NCBI RefSeq assembly: GCF_002198655.1
Contig: NZ_MWLN01000188.1
Span: 1 to 64,000 of the forward strand
Direction: 5' to 3'
Source of the DNA: Kineosporia sp. A_224
GTDB lineage: Bacteria > Actinomycetota > Actinomycetes > Actinomycetales > Kineosporiaceae
Length of the DNA: 64,000 bases
Made by a program: the position numbers and the translations under genes. The notes beneath the pieces were generated by a model that was not told the origin of the DNA, ran no database searches, and saw nothing but the letters and a program-made list of their open reading frames with translations. Below, piece by piece: positions 27,354 through 38,702 of the stretch. How positions within the stretch are numbered: the stretch's first letter is position 1; every line of letters starts with the position of its first letter.

Positions 27354-28085
27354 GTGATCGACCTCTACTACTACACGAGCCCGAACGCCCGAAAGGCCCT
27401 CATCGCGCTGGAGGAGCTGGGCCTGGACTACCGCGTCGTGTGGACGGACATCTCCGCCGGCGACCAGTTCACGGACGCCTACCGCGAGGTCAACCCCAAC
27501 TCCAAGGTGCCGGCGATCGTCGACCACGACGGGCCCGGCGGTGAGCCGGTCCGGGTCTTCGAGTCCGGCGCGGTCCTGCTCTACCTCGCGCAGAAGACCG
27601 GCCGCCTCATGCCGGCCGCGCCGCGGCTGCGCTGGGAGGCGACGTCCTGGCTCGTCTGGCAGGTCGCCAACCACGGCCCGATGGCCGGTCAGGCGGCCCA
27701 CTTCCACAGCCACGCGCCGAGGCACGGCATCGTCGACGAGTACGCGACGCGGCGGTACGTCGGGGAGGTGGAGCGGCTCTACGAGGTGCTCGACGAGCGG
27801 CTCCGCGAGCGCGAGTACCTCGCGGACGAGCTCTCCATGGCGGACGTCGCGACGTACCCGTGGGTGCGCGTGGCCGCCGGCCACGGCGTCGACGTCGCGC
27901 GGTTCCCCGCCGTCGGCGCGTGGGTCGAGCGGCTCTCGGCCCGGCCGGCGTTCAGGAAGCGGCTCGACGACCCGCGCGAGGACAAGGCCCGCCGCAACGA
28001 GTACACCCGTGAGCAGTTCACGACCCTCTTCCGCGCCACTCCGCCCGGCGACACCCCCACCACGCCCCAGGAGGCCGCACGATGA
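27354..28085 (+). CDS. isoJ: Glutathione S-transferase, IsoJ-type
   Basis: A 243-residue glutathione transferase of the Ure2p/YfcG-like branch. The N-domain starts LYYYTSPNARKALIALEELG (S10 and N12 are candidate GSH-contacting residues) and has NPNSKVPAIVDHDGP and FESGAVLLYLAQKTG. The C-domain carries the N-capping-like SMADVATYPWVR near 160-171. In the isoprene pathway IsoJ is proposed to remove glutathione from the CoA-activated intermediate. GTG 27354 is preceded by GGGGAG. The stop overlaps the ATG of aldH by 4 bp (ATGA). Assignment between IsoI and IsoJ rests on order. Confidence 0.84.
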   Translation: MIDLYYYTSPNARKALIALEELGLDYRVVWTDISAGDQFTDAYREVNPNSKVPAIVDHDGPGGEPVRVFESGAVLLYLAQKTGRLMPAAPRLRWEATSWLVWQVANHGPMAGQAAHFHSHAPRHGIVDEYATRRYVGEVERLYEVLDERLREREYLADELSMADVATYPWVRVAAGHGVDVARFPAVGAWVERLSARPAFRKRLDDPREDKARRNEYTREQFTTLFRATPPGDTPTTPQEAAR

Positions 28086-29521
28086 CCGCCGCCGACCTCA
28101 CCACCCGCCCCGCCGTCACCGCGCCCCGACTGACGATCGACGGCGCCGCCGTCGACGGCCCGAACGGCCTCGACGTCGTCGACCCCGCGACCGCCGCGCC
28201 CTTCGTCAGGGTGCCCGGGGCGTCGGTCGAGCAGCTCGACACGGCCGTCACGGCCGCGAACCGGGCCGCCGCGGGCTGGCGCCGCACCGACCCCGCCGAA
28301 CGCCGCCGGCTCGTGCTCGCGTTCGCCGGCACGGTCCGCGCCCACATCGACGAGCTCGCGCTCCTGCTCACCCTCGAGCAGGGCAAGCCGCTGGCCCGGG
28401 CCAAGGGCGAGATCGAGTCCGGGCTGCGCTACGTCGAGGCCGCCGCGGCGACCGAGCTCGCCGACGAGGTCGTCCGGGACGACGCGAGCGAGCGCATCGT
28501 CGTGCGCCGGGTGCCGCTCGGCGTCGTCGCCGCCATCACGGCGTGGAACTACCCGCTCCTGCTGGCGCTGTGGAAGATCGGTCCCGCGCTCGCGACGGGG
28601 AACGCCGTCATCGTCAAGCCGTCGCCGTTCACCCCGGTCGCGACGCTGCGGGTCGGTGAGCTCGCGCAGGAGGTGCTGCCGCCCGGCGTCCTGCAGGTCC
28701 TCGCCGGCGGGGACGACCTCGGCCGGGCGCTCGTCGAGCACGAGGGCGTCCACAAGATCTCGTTCACGGGTTCGCAGCGCACCGGCAAGGCGATCATGGC
28801 CGGTGCCGCGGGCACCCTCAAGCGGCTCACCCTCGAGCTCGGCGGCAACGACGCGGGCGTCGTCCTGCCCGACGCCGACCCTGCCGCGATCGCGTCGGAC
28901 CTCTACTGGGGCGGGCTGTCCAACTGCGGGCAGGTGTGCGCCGGGCTCAAGCGGCTCTACGTCCCGGCCGCGCGGGCGGCCGAGTACGCCGAGGCGCTGA
29001 CGGACGTCGCGCGGACGGTCCGCGTCGGCAGCGGGCTCGAGGACGGCGTCGTCATGGGCCCGGTGCAGAACGCGCCGCAGCTCGCCCGGGTCAGGGGTCT
29101 CGTCGAGGACGCCGCCGCCCGGGGCGCGGACGTCGTCTTCCGCGGCGAGGCACCGGACGGCCCCGGCTACTTCCACCCGGTCACCCTGCTGCGCACCGAC
29201 TCCGACGACGTCGGCGTCGTCGCCGAGGAGCAGTTCGGCCCCGTGCTGCCGATCCTCGCCTACGAGAGCGTCGACGAGGCCGTCGAGCGGGCGAACGGGA
29301 CGCCGTTCGGCCTCGGCGCCTCCGTCTGGTCCGCCGACCCCGAGCGGGCCGACGACGTCGCCGACCGGCTCGAGGCCGGCACCGTCTGGGTCAACCAGCA
29401 CCCCATGCTCTCGCCGGACACCCCGTTCGGCGGCCTCAAGCAGTCCGGGATCGGCGTCGAGGCGTCGGTCCACGGCCTGCTCGCCTACACCGACATCAGC
29501 GTGCTGCGCGCCAAGCGCTGA
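28082..29521 (+). CDS. aldH: NAD(P)-dependent aldehyde dehydrogenase
   Basis: A 479-residue aldehyde dehydrogenase with intact catalytic residues: ITAWNYPLLLALWKIGPAL (Asn of the oxyanion hole), FTGSQRTGK, the general base in LELGGND, and the nucleophile in NCGQVCAGLKR (near residue 285). It ends with PFGGLKQSGIGVE. It is similar to aminobutyraldehyde/betaine-type enzymes. In this cluster it may finish oxidation of the glutathionyl aldehyde or detoxify aldehydes derived from isoprene epoxide. It is translationally coupled to isoJ by a 4-bp overlap and sits between isoJ and isoA. Isoprene clusters regularly carry aldH genes, but the substrate is unproven. Confidence 0.88.
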   Translation: MTAADLTTRPAVTAPRLTIDGAAVDGPNGLDVVDPATAAPFVRVPGASVEQLDTAVTAANRAAAGWRRTDPAERRRLVLAFAGTVRAHIDELALLLTLEQGKPLARAKGEIESGLRYVEAAAATELADEVVRDDASERIVVRRVPLGVVAAITAWNYPLLLALWKIGPALATGNAVIVKPSPFTPVATLRVGELAQEVLPPGVLQVLAGGDDLGRALVEHEGVHKISFTGSQRTGKAIMAGAAGTLKRLTLELGGNDAGVVLPDADPAAIASDLYWGGLSNCGQVCAGLKRLYVPAARAAEYAEALTDVARTVRVGSGLEDGVVMGPVQNAPQLARVRGLVEDAAARGADVVFRGEAPDGPGYFHPVTLLRTDSDDVGVVAEEQFGPVLPILAYESVDEAVERANGTPFGLGASVWSADPERADDVADRLEAGTVWVNQHPMLSPDTPFGGLKQSGIGVEASVHGLLAYTDISVLRAKR

Positions 29522-29593: not shown

Positions 29594-31117
29594 ATGCTCC
29601 TGACCCGAGACGACTGGTACGAGCTGTCCCGAGACGTCGACTGGGAGCTCGACCACGTCGACCGTGCGACCGCCTTCCCGGCCAACTGGACCGGCGCCGA
29701 CGGCATCCCCGAGAAGGCCTGGGACGCCTGGGAGGAGCCGTTCCGCGTCTCCTACCGCGACTACGTCCGGCTCCAGCGCGAGAAGGAGAGCGGCGTCAAA
29801 GCGGTGAGCCAGGCGCTCGTCCGCTCCGGCACCTACGAGAAGCTCGACCCCGGGCACGTCGCCGCGTCCCACCTGCACATGGGCACGACCTGCATGGTCG
29901 AGTACATGGCGGTGACGATGCAGAGCCGGATGTGCCGGTTCGCGCCGACGCCGCGCTGGCGCAGCCTCGGCGTCTTCGGGATGCTCGACGAGACCCGCCA
30001 CACCCAGCTCGACCTGCGCTTCTCCCACGACCTGCTCAAGCACGACCCGCGGTTCGACTGGGCGCAGAAGGCGTTCCACACCAACGAGTGGGGCGTGCTC
30101 GCCGTCAAGAACTTCTTCGACGACATCATGCTCTCGGCCGACTGCGTCGAGGCGGCGATGGCCACCAGCCTCACCGTCGAGCACGGCTTCACGAACATCC
30201 AGTTCGTCGCCCTGGCCGCCGACGCGATGGCGGCCGGCGACATCAACTGGTCGAACCTGCTGTCGTCGATCCAGACCGACGAGGCCCGGCACGCCCAGCT
30301 CGGGTTCCCGACCTTGCAGGTCCTCATGGAGCACGACCCGCAGCGCGCGCAGCAGGCGCTCGACGTGGCGTTCTGGCGCTCCGCGCGGCTCTTCCAGACC
30401 CTCACCGGCCCGGCGATGGACTACTACACGCCGGTGGACCAGCGGAAGATGTCGTTCAAGGAGTTCATGCTCGAGTGGATCGTCAACCACCACGAGCGGA
30501 TCCTCGAGGACTACGGCCTCGCCAAGCCCTGGTACTGGGATCGGTTCCTGCTGTCGCTGGAGAACGGCCACCACGCGATGCACCTCGGCACGTGGTTCTG
30601 GCGGCCCACGCTCTTCTGGAAGCCCAACGCCGGCGTCTCCAAGGCCGAGCGGGAGTGGCTGCGCGAGAAGTACCCGACGTGGGAGGACAACTGGGGCGTG
30701 CTCTGGGACGAGGTCATCGCCAACGTCAACGCCGGCCGGATGGACAAGACCCTCCCGGAGACGCTGCCGTCGCTGTGCAACCTCACCCAGCTCCCGCTCG
30801 GGTCGGCGTACTCGCGCCACGAGCTCGCACCGCACCAGCTCACCTACAACGGGCGCCTGTACAGCTTCGACTCCGAGGTCTCGCAGTGGGTCTTCGAGCT
30901 CGACCCCGAGCGCTACGCCGGCCACCGGACCGTCGTCGACCGCTTCATCGGCGGCGAGATCCAGCCCATGAGCCTCGAAGGGGGCCTGCTGTGGATGGGC
31001 CTGACGCCGGAGGTCATGGGCGACGACGTCTACCAGTACGCCTGGGCGCGCGAGTACGCCGCTCTCGTCGAGACCGAGGCTGGGACGCTCGCCGGCGTTC
31101 CCGTCGCGGGCGAGTGA
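29594..31117 (+). CDS. isoA: Isoprene monooxygenase hydroxylase alpha subunit
   Basis: A 507-residue alpha subunit of a soluble diiron monooxygenase of the toluene/alkene type. Diiron ligands are visible: E103 (MVEYMAV), E133 and H136 (LDETRH), an acid near 197 in SLTVEHGF, and the second E..H pair near 231-234 (TDEARHAQLGF). It binds O2 and the alkene and inserts oxygen, giving 1,2-epoxy-2-methyl-3-butene if the substrate is isoprene. GAGAGGA is 7 bases before the ATG. By family alone it could be a toluene 4-monooxygenase or propene monooxygenase; the surrounding isoGHIJ and glutathione genes point to isoprene. Confidence 0.9.
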   Translation: MLLTRDDWYELSRDVDWELDHVDRATAFPANWTGADGIPEKAWDAWEEPFRVSYRDYVRLQREKESGVKAVSQALVRSGTYEKLDPGHVAASHLHMGTTCMVEYMAVTMQSRMCRFAPTPRWRSLGVFGMLDETRHTQLDLRFSHDLLKHDPRFDWAQKAFHTNEWGVLAVKNFFDDIMLSADCVEAAMATSLTVEHGFTNIQFVALAADAMAAGDINWSNLLSSIQTDEARHAQLGFPTLQVLMEHDPQRAQQALDVAFWRSARLFQTLTGPAMDYYTPVDQRKMSFKEFMLEWIVNHHERILEDYGLAKPWYWDRFLLSLENGHHAMHLGTWFWRPTLFWKPNAGVSKAEREWLREKYPTWEDNWGVLWDEVIANVNAGRMDKTLPETLPSLCNLTQLPLGSAYSRHELAPHQLTYNGRLYSFDSEVSQWVFELDPERYAGHRTVVDRFIGGEIQPMSLEGGLLWMGLTPEVMGDDVYQYAWAREYAALVETEAGTLAGVPVAGE

Positions 31118-32127: not shown

Positions 32128-33150
32128 ATGACGAACGTCAGTGCCCCGCGACCCAGGAGCCGCGGGCTGAAGACCTGGAGCAGCTTCGGCAACCTCGGCC
32201 GTCGTCCGACGGAGTACGAGGTGCTCACCTGGAACATGAACCACACCGCCGGCTCGCCCGCGCTCGAGCTCGGGCCGGACGTCAACGGCAACGTGTGGCT
32301 GCGCGAGCACCGCGACGGGATGCGGTTCGTCGTCCCCTCGTGGGACGCCTTCCGTGACCCCGACCAGGTGACCTACGGCAGCTACGTCGCGATGCAGGAC
32401 GACGCCGAGACGTACGTCGAGGGCCTCCTCGCGCAGTTCGACGCCGACGGCCACGACGCGGCGCTCCCCGGCGGTGCGCTCGACGTGCTCGCCGTGGCAC
32501 TGGCCCCGTGCCGGTTCCTCGGCCACGGCCTGCAGATGCTGTCGGCGTACGTGCAGCAGCTCGCGCCGAGCAGCTTCGTGGCGACCGCCGCGACGTTCCA
32601 GACCGCCGACCAGCTGCGCCGGGTGCAGACCCTCGCGTACCGGACGACGCAGCTCGCCCGCGCCCACCCCGGCCTCGGCTTCGGCACGGGTGAGCGGGCG
32701 GCGTGGCGCGAGGACCCGCACTGGCAGCCCCTGCGCCGGCTCGTCGAGCTCGCGCTCGTCGAGTACGACTGGGACCGCGCGGTCGTGGCGACCCAGCTCG
32801 TCGTCAAGCCGGTCGCGGACCTGCTCCTGCTCGACGCGCTCGCGCACCGGTTGGGCGCTGCGGGGGCGACCCTCGACGCCCTCGTCCTGGAGAACCTCGC
32901 CAAGGACGCCCGCCGCTCGCAACGGTTCTCGGTCGCTCTCGCGCGGTTCGTCGTCGAGGCCGACCCGGGCAACGCCGCGGTGCTCCAGGAGTACCTCGAC
33001 GCGTGGGCGCCGCTGGGGCACGAGGCGGTCGCCGACGGGGCCCGGCTCTTCGCAGCCGACGAGGACGACGTGGCGCGGGTGCGCGCGTCGGTCACCCAGG
33101 ACTGGGCGGGGCTCGTCACGGACGCCGGCCTGCGCCTGCCGGACGCCTGA
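32128..33150 (+). CDS. isoE: Isoprene monooxygenase hydroxylase beta subunit
   Basis: A 340-residue beta subunit of the soluble diiron monooxygenase. It has the ferritin-like helical fold without iron ligands. Recognisable stretches are LKTWSSFGNLGRRPTEYEVLT near 14-35, YVAMQDDAETYVEGLL near 90, CRFLGHGLQMLSAYVQQLAPSS near 128-150, and VEYDWDRAVVATQLVVKP near 212-230. It supports the alpha subunit in the hydroxylase dimer. GAAGAGGA precedes the ATG at 32128. Confidence 0.88.
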   Translation: MTNVSAPRPRSRGLKTWSSFGNLGRRPTEYEVLTWNMNHTAGSPALELGPDVNGNVWLREHRDGMRFVVPSWDAFRDPDQVTYGSYVAMQDDAETYVEGLLAQFDADGHDAALPGGALDVLAVALAPCRFLGHGLQMLSAYVQQLAPSSFVATAATFQTADQLRRVQTLAYRTTQLARAHPGLGFGTGERAAWREDPHWQPLRRLVELALVEYDWDRAVVATQLVVKPVADLLLLDALAHRLGAAGATLDALVLENLAKDARRSQRFSVALARFVVEADPGNAAVLQEYLDAWAPLGHEAVADGARLFAADEDDVARVRASVTQDWAGLVTDAGLRLPDA

Positions 33151-33161
33151 CGGGGCCGACG

Positions 33162-34259
33162 GTGACGGGCACGGCGGCGGCCTCCACGGCAGCGGCGTCC
33201 ACGGCAGCGGTGCCGGTGCAGGTGCGCATCGGTGACGTGGACGTCGCGTGCGGGCCGGGCGAGACGGTGCTGCTCTCGGCGCTGCGCGCCGGCTGGGACC
33301 TGCCGTACGAGTGCGCGTCCGGTGGCTGCGGCTCGTGCAAGGCGGTCCTGACCGGCGGCGAGGTCCGGTCGCTGTGGCCGGACGCCCCGGGCCTGTCGGA
33401 CCGGGACCGGCGTAAGGGCGACCGCGTGCTCGCGTGCCAGAGCGTGCCCGCGGAGGGCTGCGCGCTCCGGCTCCCCGGGACCGCCGGACCGCAGCGCGCC
33501 GCGTCCGGTCCGGGCGCGCGGCCGGTGCCCGGGCGACGGCCCGCCCGGATCGGTGCTGTTCTGCAGCTGTCGGCGGACACCGTCCTCGTCACCGTCGTCC
33601 CCGACCGGCCGGTGGCCTACCTCGCCGGCCAGTTCGTCCTCCTCGAGCTGCCCGACGGCACCCGACGGGCCTACTCGATGAGCCGCGAGCCCGCGGACGC
33701 GCCGGCGGGCGACGACCGCCTCGAGCTCGTCGTCCGCCGCGTGCCCGGCGGCCGGGCGTCGTCCTGGCTCGCGGGTGCGACGGCCGGCGACCCGCTCGTC
33801 GTCGAGGGGCCGTACGGCCGGGCGCACGTGCAGTCCCAGGCCGACCGGCCCGTCGTCTGCGTCGGCGGCGGCAGCGGGCTCGGCCCCGTCCTGGCGGTGG
33901 CCGAACGCTGCCTCACCGAGGCGCCGAGCCGGCCGGTCCGGCTCTACTACGGCGCCCGCACCGACGCCGACGTGGTCCTCGCCGCCCGGTTGCGCCGGCT
34001 GCGGTCCCGCGGCGCGCGGGTCGACGTCGTCACCGACGTGCCGCCGTCCGCAGCGGCCGCCGGGCGGCTCGCGCCGCTCGCCGTCCGCGCCGGCCGCGTC
34101 GTCGACGCTGTCGACGCAGACCACCCGGGACCGGCCGACCTCACCGGCCACGACGTGTACCTGGCGGGACCGACGCCGATGGTCGACGCTCTCCTCGCGA
34201 GCCTCGTCCGCACGGGGCGGGTCGGCGCCGACCGGACGTTCTTCGACAGGTTCCTCTGA
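33162..34259 (+). CDS. isoF: Monooxygenase NADH reductase (2Fe-2S/FAD)
   Basis: A 365-residue reductase that moves electrons from NADH through FAD and a plant-type [2Fe-2S] cluster to the ferredoxin IsoC. Cluster ligands are C51, C56, C59 and C92 (CASGGCGSC and LACQS). The FAD motif RAYSMSREP is near residue 168, and the NAD site VCVGGGSGLGP near 230. The N-terminal 16 residues are an Ala/Thr-rich arm; GTG 33162 is used, with GTG 33210 as an alternative start at the conserved domain. It closes the isoABCDEF set. Confidence 0.9.
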   Translation: MTGTAAASTAAASTAAVPVQVRIGDVDVACGPGETVLLSALRAGWDLPYECASGGCGSCKAVLTGGEVRSLWPDAPGLSDRDRRKGDRVLACQSVPAEGCALRLPGTAGPQRAASGPGARPVPGRRPARIGAVLQLSADTVLVTVVPDRPVAYLAGQFVLLELPDGTRRAYSMSREPADAPAGDDRLELVVRRVPGGRASSWLAGATAGDPLVVEGPYGRAHVQSQADRPVVCVGGGSGLGPVLAVAERCLTEAPSRPVRLYYGARTDADVVLAARLRRLRSRGARVDVVTDVPPSAAAAGRLAPLAVRAGRVVDAVDADHPGPADLTGHDVYLAGPTPMVDALLASLVRTGRVGADRTFFDRFL

Positions 34260-34300: not shown

Positions 34301-35716
34301 ATGACGACGAACACGACCACGCGGACCACCTCGGCCGACGCACCGGGCACGGCCGGCACAACGGTCGCGGGCGACGAGGAGTTCGCCCGCAACCTCGTCG
34401 ACGGGCGCTGGCGGTTCCCGGCGGCACCGTACGAGTTCGAGATCCGCAGTCCGCAGGACAGCCGCGTCGTCGCCTGCGTCCCGCTGTCGAGCCGGTTCGA
34501 CGTCGACGCCGCCCTCCAGGCCGGTGCCCGGGCCGCGCAGGCGTGGGCCGCCGACCCGGCCGTCCGGGTGCGGCTCGTCGCGCAGGCCGTCGCCGACCTC
34601 GACCGGCTCGCGGTCCCGGTCGCCGAGGTCGTCGCGACCGAGACCGGGCTCGACCTGGCCGACGCCGTGGAGCAGGTCCGCACCGGCGTGCGCTGGGCGC
34701 GGCACCGGGTCGCGCTCGCCGCCGTGGACGACGCCGGGCCGCCGGCCGTCGAGCCGCCGGGCGTCGCGGGCGTCGCGGGCGTCGTCCTCGGGTGGGGCGC
34801 GCCGTTCCTCGAGGCGGTGTCAGGCATCCTGCCGCTGCTGCTGCAGGGGCGCACCGTCGTCGTCAAGCCGTCGCTGCGGGCGCCGCTCAGCGCCGTCGTC
34901 CTCGCCCACCGGCTCGTCGCGGCCGGTCTGCCCGAGGGCGTCCTCGGTGTCGTCCAGGGCACCGGTACCGACGTCGGCGCCGCCCTCGTCGGCCGCCGCG
35001 ACCTCGCGGTCCTCCATGTCCGCGGGGGCGGGCGCACGCTCGACCTCGCCGGCCGGGCGGTCGCCACGACCGGGGTGCCGCTTCACCCGCTGCGGGCGGG
35101 CGGGAACGTCCTGCTCTCCGGCCGGGACGCCGACCCGGCGCTCGTCGCAGCCACCGTGGCCGCGGGGCTTCGGCTGCACAACGCCTCGGGGCCGGCGGCC
35201 GTGCCGTGGCTCGTGGTCCATGCCGACACGGCGGGCCCGGTCGTCGACGCCCTCGTCGCCGCCGCATCCGCGACCCGCCCGGTGCCGCTGCCCACCGAGC
35301 CGGTCCGCGATCGGGCGCTCGCCGCCGTCCGGACGCTCGGGCGGCTCGGCGGCCGGGTGCTCACCGGTGGCGCGGTCCCGGACGACGTCGCGCACCGGAT
35401 GGGCTGGCTCGTGCCCGCGACCGTCGTCACCGTCGGGGCCGTCGGCAGCCGGCTCGGGCCCCGCTCGGACGACGACCCGTGGCGCGAGCCGCTCGGCCCC
35501 GTCGTCGCCGTCGCGACCTGGCGGACGTCGGACGACCTCGCGGACGCGTTCTCCCGCAGCCGGTTCCGGGACGGCATCGGCTGGGTGCACCAGGTCGGCG
35601 ACGACGCGGCGGCGGCGTTGACGGGCGTCGTGCGGCAGGCCCGCGGCACCGACCACGGCGTCGACGCCGACGACCTGCCGGCCGCGTGGACGACCGGCTG
35701 CGGAGGTGTGCGGTGA
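34301..35716 (+). CDS. Aldehyde dehydrogenase-like protein lacking catalytic residues
   Basis: A 471-residue ALDH-fold protein. The general architecture is kept: VVLGWGAPFLEAVSGILPLLL aligns with the Asn-containing PWNxP region, GRTVVVKPS is normal, and the C-terminus has PWREPLGPVVAVATW. The catalytic centre is not: where active enzymes have ELGG(N/K) it reads PLRAGGN, and where they have GQxC it reads NASGPAAVPW, with no cysteine. A redox reaction of the usual thiohemiacetal kind is therefore unlikely. It may be a structural, binding or regulatory paralogue. It overlaps gshB by 4 bp, so it is kept in the operon and shows no frame damage. Confidence 0.82.
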   Translation: MTTNTTTRTTSADAPGTAGTTVAGDEEFARNLVDGRWRFPAAPYEFEIRSPQDSRVVACVPLSSRFDVDAALQAGARAAQAWAADPAVRVRLVAQAVADLDRLAVPVAEVVATETGLDLADAVEQVRTGVRWARHRVALAAVDDAGPPAVEPPGVAGVAGVVLGWGAPFLEAVSGILPLLLQGRTVVVKPSLRAPLSAVVLAHRLVAAGLPEGVLGVVQGTGTDVGAALVGRRDLAVLHVRGGGRTLDLAGRAVATTGVPLHPLRAGGNVLLSGRDADPALVAATVAAGLRLHNASGPAAVPWLVVHADTAGPVVDALVAAASATRPVPLPTEPVRDRALAAVRTLGRLGGRVLTGGAVPDDVAHRMGWLVPATVVTVGAVGSRLGPRSDDDPWREPLGPVVAVATWRTSDDLADAFSRSRFRDGIGWVHQVGDDAAAALTGVVRQARGTDHGVDADDLPAAWTTGCGGVR

Positions 35717-36702
35717 CCGGTCTGCGGATGCTCTTCGTCGTCGACCCGCTCGACGGGCTGCTGCCCGCGCACGACACGTCGGTCGCCCTCATGGAGGCGG
35801 CGCAGGCGGACGGCCACGAGGTGCTCGCGACGACGATGCGCGAGCTGTCCGTCGTCGGTGGCGGCGCGGTGGCGCGCGCCGTCCGGGTGCACGTCGACCC
35901 GTGCCGTGTCGTCGACGGCCGGTTCGTCGCGCCGCAGCACTGGTACCGCGCCGAGCCGGTCGGGGACGTCCCCCTGGCGGACGTCGACGTCGTCCTCGTC
36001 CGCACCGACCCACCAGTCGACGCCGACTACCTGCGTGGCACGTACGTCCTCGACGCCGCCCGCGCGCCGCGGACCCTGCTCGTCAACGACCCCCGCGGGC
36101 TGCGCGAGGTCAACGAGAAGCTCTACACGCTGCGGTACCCGGACCTCATCCCGGAGACCGTCGTCCGCGCGGACCTCGACGGGTTGCGGGGCACCGTCAC
36201 CCGGTGGGGCCGTGCCGTCCTCAAGCCGACCGACGCGATGGCCGGCCGCGGCATCCTGCTGCTCCGCGACGACGACCCGAACCTCGCCTCGCTCCTCGAG
36301 CTGTCGACGGTCCGCGGGCAGAGTCATGTCATCCTGCAACAGTTCGTGCCCGAGGCCGTCGACGGCGACCGCCGGGTCATCGTCGTCGACGGCGAACCGG
36401 TCGGCGCGATCCGGCGGGTGGCCGCCGGCACCGAGTTCCGCTGCAACATGGCGGCCGGCGCCACCGTGCTGCCGGACGCTGTGACGAGCCGGGACAAGGA
36501 GATCTGCGACGTCCTCGCGCCGGACCTGCGGGCGCTCGGGATCGTCCTCGCCGGGCTCGACGTCATCGGCGACCGGCTCACCGAGGTCAACGTGACGAGC
36601 CCGACGGGCGCGCGGGAGATCGAGGCGCTCACCGGTGCACCCGTCGCGCGCGTCGTCGTCGAGCGGATCGTCGACCTCCACGCCCGGCGGGGCACGGCAT
36701 GA
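35713..36702 (+). CDS. gshB: Glutathione synthetase
   Basis: A 329-residue ATP-grasp enzyme of the proteobacterial GshB type, joining glycine to gamma-glutamylcysteine. The match to E. coli GshB motifs is close: VRTDPPVDADY near 98, NEKLYTLRYPDLIPETVV near 137, LKPTDAMAGRGI near 178, and GLDVIGDRLTEVNVTSPTG near 280-298. GshB of this type is unusual in Actinomycetota, which generally make mycothiol, so it was probably acquired with the cluster. The GTG start at 35713 overlaps the preceding stop (GTGA), and the stop overlaps the next ATG (ATGA). Confidence 0.92.
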   Translation: MTGLRMLFVVDPLDGLLPAHDTSVALMEAAQADGHEVLATTMRELSVVGGGAVARAVRVHVDPCRVVDGRFVAPQHWYRAEPVGDVPLADVDVVLVRTDPPVDADYLRGTYVLDAARAPRTLLVNDPRGLREVNEKLYTLRYPDLIPETVVRADLDGLRGTVTRWGRAVLKPTDAMAGRGILLLRDDDPNLASLLELSTVRGQSHVILQQFVPEAVDGDRRVIVVDGEPVGAIRRVAAGTEFRCNMAAGATVLPDAVTSRDKEICDVLAPDLRALGIVLAGLDVIGDRLTEVNVTSPTGAREIEALTGAPVARVVVERIVDLHARRGTA

Positions 36703-38087: not shown

Positions 38088-38702
38088 ATGCCCTACGTCT
38101 TCGGCTACGGGTCGCTCGTCGACCGCGAGTCGCTCGAGGCGAGCATCGGCCGGGCGGTGTCCGCCGCGGACGGGCCGTTCGTGCTGCGGCTGCGCGGGTA
38201 CCGACGGGCCTGGAACGTCCTCGGGCACAGCAGCGAGCGGCCGGAGTACCTGTTCACCGACGACGGCGGGAGCCCATGGGAGGGCTGGTTGGCCTTCCTC
38301 GGTGTGGAGCCGGCCGCCGGTGCCGCTACGCCCGGGGCGGCCTGGCGGCTCACGGACGCTGACCTGGAGGCCCTCGACGACCGGGAGCGCAGCTATGACC
38401 GTGTCGACGTGACGCCGCTCCTGGACGCCGTCGCGTCGCGGCGGCCGGACGGACCGGTGGCGACCTACATGCCGCGCGACGACGTCGTGAGGCATGCGGC
38501 CGCCGTCCGTCCCGCGGGGACGGTGATGGCGAGGTACCTGCGGCTGGTCGACCGGGGCTACCGCGATCTCGGCGAGACCCTGTACGCCGAGCACCTGGCG
38601 ACCCTTCCCGCGTTCGATCCTCTGGCCGTGCGGGAGATCCGGGTGCGACCCGTGGTGCCGGGCGGGCGCAACGAGGCCGTGGACCCGGACGCAGGGGCCT
38701 GA
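38088..38702 (+). CDS. Gamma-glutamylcyclotransferase (ChaC/GGCT-like)
   Basis: A 204-residue gamma-glutamylcyclotransferase-fold protein. It has the substrate-binding loop VFGYGSLVDRE (residues 4-14), LRLRGYRRAWNV near 33-44, and the catalytic-type glutamate E100 in LDDRERSYDRVDV. Such enzymes cleave gamma-glutamyl bonds to give 5-oxoproline. ChaC-type members act on glutathione itself, others on gamma-glutamyl amino acids. It starts 3 bases after the disulfide reductase stop, so it is the last gene of the isoprene/glutathione operon. A role in glutathione or glutathione-conjugate turnover is inference from position. Confidence 0.8.
   Translation: MPYVFGYGSLVDRESLEASIGRAVSAADGPFVLRLRGYRRAWNVLGHSSERPEYLFTDDGGSPWEGWLAFLGVEPAAGAATPGAAWRLTDADLEALDDRERSYDRVDVTPLLDAVASRRPDGPVATYMPRDDVVRHAAAVRPAGTVMARYLRLVDRGYRDLGETLYAEHLATLPAFDPLAVREIRVRPVVPGGRNEAVDPDAGA

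Follow-up and report, generated by a model that had tools for sequence, protein, structure and literature searches.

Among biogenic volatile compounds, isoprene ranks first in abundance. The pathways for isoprene, isobutylene and propylene have in common a Group 2 monooxygenase that turns the alkene into an epoxide, which is then handled by glutathione in isoprene clusters, by an epoxide hydrolase in the case of isobutylene, and by coenzyme M in the case of propylene. In the Gram-positive iso clusters, including that of Rhodococcus sp. AD45, the gene aldh2 lies behind isoF and before gshB, and is listed as encoding an aldehyde dehydrogenase (ALDH), with reported identities of 73-75% within rhodococci and no more than about 30% to other sequences (PMC4676930, PMC6849523, PMC7355492). 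The AD45 gene is induced by isoprene and epoxyisoprene, and appears in the table of highly induced genes (PMC4676930). In cured AD45, isoABCDEF without aldH2 gives an active enzyme, aldH2 being dispensable for IsoMO activity in extracts, and attempts to purify IsoF in an active state failed (PMC9004368). A single AldH1-like aldH, with no aldH2, has been reported for the Gram-negative isoprene degraders Variovorax WS11 and Ramlibacter WS9 (PMC7143210).

A related arrangement is found in Mycolicibacterium sp. ELW1, on a plasmid of ~221 kb, with the gene order ibcABCDEF-ibcG-ibcH-ibcI-ibcJ-ibcK. The same work noted a predicted ALDH at this position also in AD45 and in Xanthobacter Py2, proposed an oxidation by IbcG in the 2-methyl-2-propene-1-ol route, and found the RNA of ibc cluster 1 up by about log2 4.2, with the Ibc proteins also raised (PMC13188929). 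The gene itself is known (aldh2, ibcG, Xaut_4863); that it is retained behind alkene monooxygenases was pointed out in 2026, and the literature assumes that it encodes an ALDH. ALDH pseudoenzymes as such are also already known: human ALDH16A1 has an ALDH fold without the catalytic Cys and is thought to act by binding (PMC8160307), and GRM1 microcompartment loci encode a dead second AldDH together with an active ALDH (PMC4207490). The likeness of these proteins to AldH2 is one of kind, by description; their contexts are unrelated, and the AldH2 clade loses Asn, Glu and Cys. What is new here is the loss of the catalytic residues across a whole clade; in the openly licensed PMC literature, no earlier statement that AldH2, IbcG or Xaut_4863 lacks them was found.

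aldH2 in the isoprene operon of Kineosporia

The stretch analysed here, hereafter the window, comprises 64,000 nucleotides of Kineosporia sp. A_224 and contains an isoprene operon in the order isoG, isoH, isoI, isoJ, aldH1, isoA-F, aldH2, gshB, a CoA-disulfide-reductase-like gene and a cyclotransferase-like gene. As in the described Gram-positive clusters, aldH2 (34301-35716, plus strand, as are isoF, gshB, isoA and aldH1 below) stands between isoF and gshB. The initial annotation had taken the frame as intact and the gene as coupled to both neighbours, and both statements hold: aldH2 is open from ATG to TGA (471 aa plus stop); isoF (33150-34259, start approximate), encoding the monooxygenase reductase with ferredoxin, FAD and NAD domains, ends with a stop codon at 34257-34259, leaving a gap of 41 bp to the aldH2 ATG at 34301; and gshB (35713-36702), encoding glutathione synthetase, starts with a GTG at 35713 that overlaps the aldH2 TGA, for an overlap of 4 bp. 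The GC3 of aldH2 is 96%. The monooxygenase alpha subunit, encoded by isoA (29594-31117), is 81-84% identical to its counterparts in other actinobacterial iso clusters and 72.5% identical to XamoA. A second alpha subunit of Group 2 type, about 45-46% identical to IsoA, is encoded elsewhere in the same genome (G000:C86:22131-23609, L015).

The operon also carries a canonical ALDH gene, aldH1 (28082-29521; motifs LELGGN and NCGQVC), which serves as an internal control. AldH1 matches PF00171 with E=1.2e-140, versus E=4.9e-35 for AldH2, whose residues 45-415 cover positions 8-387 of the 461 in the profile and leave the profile end unmatched. PF00171 is the sole Pfam family in AldH2 and in its eight orthologues, all nine of which match it. 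Against the named NCBIfam ALDH equivalogs, the best score of AldH2 is 85.9 bits, versus a curated cut-off of 750. The enzymes purified by Rix et al. in 2023 were of AldH1 type, their AD45 AldH being 52.7% identical to that of WS11, which is the AldH1 value reported elsewhere. In the clusters studied here, the dead aldH2 lies behind isoF and aldH1 before isoA, so the two may have been mixed up.

The gamma-glutamylcyclotransferase-like gene that ends the operon (38088-38702) has no Pfam match. Relatives of it lie near the iso clusters of two of the genomes introduced below, L027 (19313-19867) and L031 (18569-19168, minus strand), which suggests that glutathione turnover is part of the iso module.

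Orthologues in three cluster types

The set on which the comparisons rest comprises nine proteins: that of the window, those of L001, L002, L026, L027, L031, L032 and L033, and Xaut_4863. Close relatives of the window protein, at 88-89%, come from Kineosporia sp. R_H_3 (L001) and a groundwater MAG (L002). Searches with IsoA led to a Rhodococcus-like (L026) and a Gordonia-like (L027) cluster, and the AldH2 profile picked up a Nocardioides-like chromosome (L031) and two Mycobacterium-like genomes (L032, L033), all five labels reflecting inferred affiliations. The order isoF-aldH2-gshB-CoA reductase in L026, L027, L031 and L032 is that of the window. The IsoA-F homologues of L033, on a 221-kb contig, are followed by genes for the AldH2 orthologue and a GMC oxidoreductase, then by a small ORF, and lastly by genes for an ALDH that has its motifs intact and for an epoxide hydrolase. 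This matches the published ibc order of ELW1, with the triad-less orthologue (about 41%) as the gene behind ibcF. Contrary to the window, this ibc-type locus belongs to an isobutylene pathway, with an epoxide hydrolase and no glutathione genes nearby. Finally, Xaut_4863 (ABS70074.1) of Xanthobacter autotrophicus Py2 lies behind xamoABCDEF, is 29-30% identical to the clade (30% by BLASTP; hhalign E=2e-33), keeps KPSLR, VQG and RRMGW, and misses the triad. It differs from the window protein in its length (387 aa, with a shortened C-terminus), in its coenzyme M pathway and in its alphaproteobacterial host.

When placed among 16 canonical ALDHs, the nine proteins form a single branch (100/100, in 100% of bootstrap trees; IQ-TREE PMSF), within which Py2 has a long branch. 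In iso, ibc-type and xamo clusters alike, the gene is found directly behind that of the Group 2 monooxygenase reductase. The framing of aldH2 as an iso-operon gene therefore stands as to its place in the operon, but not as to its specificity, since it also occurs behind isobutylene-type and propylene monooxygenase genes.

The AldH2 profile found one match in 295 genomes of one family, two in 297 genomes of one genus, and only the window's own in 395 genomes of the class, three actinobacterial samples that may overlap in genomes. All of these matches sit in alkene-monooxygenase clusters, with the qualification that the R_H_3 contig holds isoE, isoF and aldH2 without isoA. In the plasmid collection, searches with AldH2-type proteins returned background ALDHs only, apart from Py2, and a scan of viral contigs with IsoA returned nothing. 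Among nine Group 2 clusters of other types (with alpha subunits that share 44-50% identity with IsoA), no annotated ALDH gene lies directly behind the reductase gene, the X. dioxanivorans record being uninformative because it stops at the reductase; in one of them, which is carried by an R. ruber plasmid, an ALDH gene lies just past the reductase on the opposite strand. Three loci from another actinobacterial family (L019, L020, L021) encode an alpha subunit 81-83% identical to IsoA together with homologues of C, D and E, with no match to IsoF, IsoGHIJ or AldH2 nearby, and their genomes hold background ALDHs only.

As for the R_H_3 contig (L001:7254-7782, L053 contig), its iso cluster starts within isoD: ahead of residue 40 of isoD lies a membrane-protein-like ORF joined in frame, isoA-C and isoGHIJ were not found upstream of isoD on the stretch read, and isoE, isoF, aldH2 and gshB are intact. 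The junction is either a deletion or an assembly join.

Since the three pathways handle their epoxides differently, AldH2 tracks the monooxygenase or the epoxide, not the glutathione chemistry, and a role in the glutathione pathway is weakened by the orthologues in ibc-type and xamo clusters. If the epoxide is what matters, AldH2 could be an epoxide- or inducer-binding protein, whose emptied ALDH tunnel would hold the epoxide and either buffer this toxic product or report it to a regulator. An aliphatic epoxide is indeed the feature common to the three pathways, the examined clusters of other Group 2 types lack the gene, and an isoA deletion mutant of AD45 responds to epoxyisoprene and not to isoprene (PMC4676930). 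However, a response to epoxyisoprene is also seen in Variovorax WS11, which is reported to lack aldH2, and conservation is lower in the half with the catalytic chamber, which is unexpected for a ligand site; we regard this explanation as unlikely.

Catalytic residues and the site of constraint

Residues are numbered after human ALDH2, unless the window's own residues are given with their codons. In a joint alignment of the clade with the 16 canonical ALDHs, every one of the latter carries N169, E268 and C302, whereas in the nine clade members N169 is replaced by G or S, E268 by L or H, and C302 by P, L or G, so that none of the nine holds the Cys302, Glu268 and Asn169 of a competent ALDH. In the window, the Asn169 position is taken by G166 (codon 34796-34798), that of Glu268 by L264 or R265 (35090-35095; by alignment or by anchoring on GGN, respectively), and that of Cys302 by P298 or A299 (35192-35197; by alignment or by anchoring on Asn). 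AldH2 thus reads HPLRAGGN where AldH1 reads LTLELGGN, and HNASGPAAVPW where AldH1 reads SNCGQVCAG; in AldH1, the motifs LELGG, GQxC, WN, EExFGP and PFGGxKxSGxG are all intact. The initial annotation, which had described an ALDH homologue without catalytic Cys or Glu from the motifs PLRAGGN and NASGPAAVPW, quoted both exactly and is borne out by the joint alignment, to which the loss of Asn169 has to be added.

The alignment with the genes of other iso clusters, proposed at that stage as a check, shows the loss to be shared, and the same three losses are found in orthologues down to 29% identity. Within iso clusters, this has been established for L026, L027, L031, L032 and the Kineosporia group, a set that does not include AD45 itself. 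A displaced catalytic Cys, also raised at that stage, was looked for by alignment and is ruled out, because the only Cys residues of the window protein, C59 and C467, are not conserved and the L026 orthologue contains no Cys at all. Likewise, in the window protein the alignment shows no Glu at the site of Glu268 or close to it.

AldH2 keeps W168, P171, K192 and G225, and loses E195, G250, F401, N454 and the C-terminal PFGGxKxSGxG. Across the clade, the predicted NAD(P) site appears to retain W168, K192 and G225, to have lost E195, G250 and F401, and to have mostly lost S246. In the KPSLR motif (K189-R193; 34865-34879), the equivalent of K192 is kept, and that of E195 has become Leu then Arg, both invariant in the clade. 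Since, besides the Cys, the protein has also lost Asn, Glu and a large part of its catalytic chamber, dehydrogenation by AldH2 is unlikely, and so is the oxidation proposed for IbcG in the 2-methyl-2-propene-1-ol route, because the catalytic residues are missing. Of the roles initially suggested, that of a binding or scaffold protein would fit these sequences, and action on a different intermediate without a thiohemiacetal step is possible.

The window gene is under purifying selection, as judged from codon comparisons. Its dN/dS against near relatives is 0.22-0.28, which indicates that it is kept as a protein, with values of 0.18-0.20 for isoE, 0.29-0.39 for isoF and 0.10-0.13 for gshB. The early suggestion of a conserved pseudoenzyme is thus upheld, the loss being common to nine of nine orthologues. 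A decaying pseudogene or by-stander could account for the shortened Py2 copy and the poorly conserved catalytic region, but all nine frames are intact, the dN/dS is 0.2-0.3, the GC3 of the window gene is 96%, 15 of the 58 invariant residues are clade-specific, and transcripts and protein are induced in the literature. We reject this explanation on the grounds of dN/dS, frames and clade-specific invariants, and hold it to be very improbable.

In order to locate the constraint, AldH2 was compared with AldH1 from the same five organisms. The mean identity within AldH2 amounts to 77-85% of that within AldH1 up to E268, in the Rossmann part, and then to 52% over E268-C302, 65% in the next catalytic part and 49% after E399. 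Of the residues invariant in all nine proteins, 20 lie between residues 180 and 239 (KPSLR, VQGxGxDVG), and the clade-specific ones are practically absent from canonical ALDHs. This suggests a function located in the cofactor-binding half, whose ribose site would have been rebuilt. Clade-specific invariants also occur outside the Rossmann core, where R366, M367 and W369 are invariant, which would speak for an enzyme that carries out a different, non-dehydrogenation chemistry in a remodelled ALDH chamber. Against such an enzyme, the E268-C302 region and later parts are under relaxed conservation and, as substrates and pathways differ among the three cluster types, a new reaction shared by all of them would need to have the alkene or the epoxide as its substrate, which leaves this explanation a slim chance.

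The AlphaFold2 model of AldH2 is poor (mean pLDDT 48.6, pTM 0.55), because few sequences were used. As for possible partners, the highest distance-matrix correlation of AldH2 is with IsoE (0.974, 7 taxa), versus 0.95 with AldH1 in a 5-taxon control; these values do not discriminate, and the naming of a partner by this means was dropped. The correlation with AldH1 would suit a protein that partners the active ALDH of the pathway in a regulatory or structural way, by forming a mixed oligomer with AldH1 or IbcJ. AldH1 is present in four full iso clusters and the window, the ibc-type cluster has an active ALDH, and GRM1 loci pair an active with a dead AldDH (PMC4207490). Nevertheless, the correlation is no better than that with IsoE, the C-terminal oligomerisation end of AldH2 is lost or degraded, and the annotation of Py2 shows no further ALDH gene near xamo, so that a partnership of this kind appears rather improbable.

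A possible role beside the monooxygenase

On sequence grounds, the clade forms a single branch that has lost all three catalytic residues, with its gene behind the reductase gene in three cluster types. The reading we prefer, to which we give about an even chance, is that AldH2 would be a catalytically dead ALDH-fold accessory of Group 2 alkene monooxygenases, acting via its Rossmann half. The retained function would lie in that half, in KPSLR and VQGxGxDVG, where most invariants cluster, and the protein may bind there a ligand or partner, which could be a nucleotide or one of the monooxygenase components, for instance IsoF or IsoE. In this manner, AldH2 would support the monooxygenase or the handling of the epoxide without oxidising an aldehyde. 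Since isoABCDEF alone is active in cured AD45, and Gram-negative degraders are reported without the gene, this role would be supportive or conditional.

The triad loss across the clade makes the simplest reading of aldH2 and ibcG, that of an ALDH, unlikely, and calls for caution with the ALDH annotation and with the pathway drawings that rest on these genes. In addition, because the gene follows alkene monooxygenases of three kinds, attention shifts away from the glutathione pathway and towards the monooxygenase and epoxide step. Tentatively, and at somewhat under an even likelihood, the dead ALDH may be an unrecognised accessory component of Group 2 systems that oxidisers of isoprene, isobutylene and propylene have in common. 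It would work either as a nucleotide- or epoxide-responsive regulator or in assembly, as a partner of the reductase or the hydroxylase. Bacteria that feed on these three alkenes keep a dead ALDH, which probably has a non-enzymatic job.
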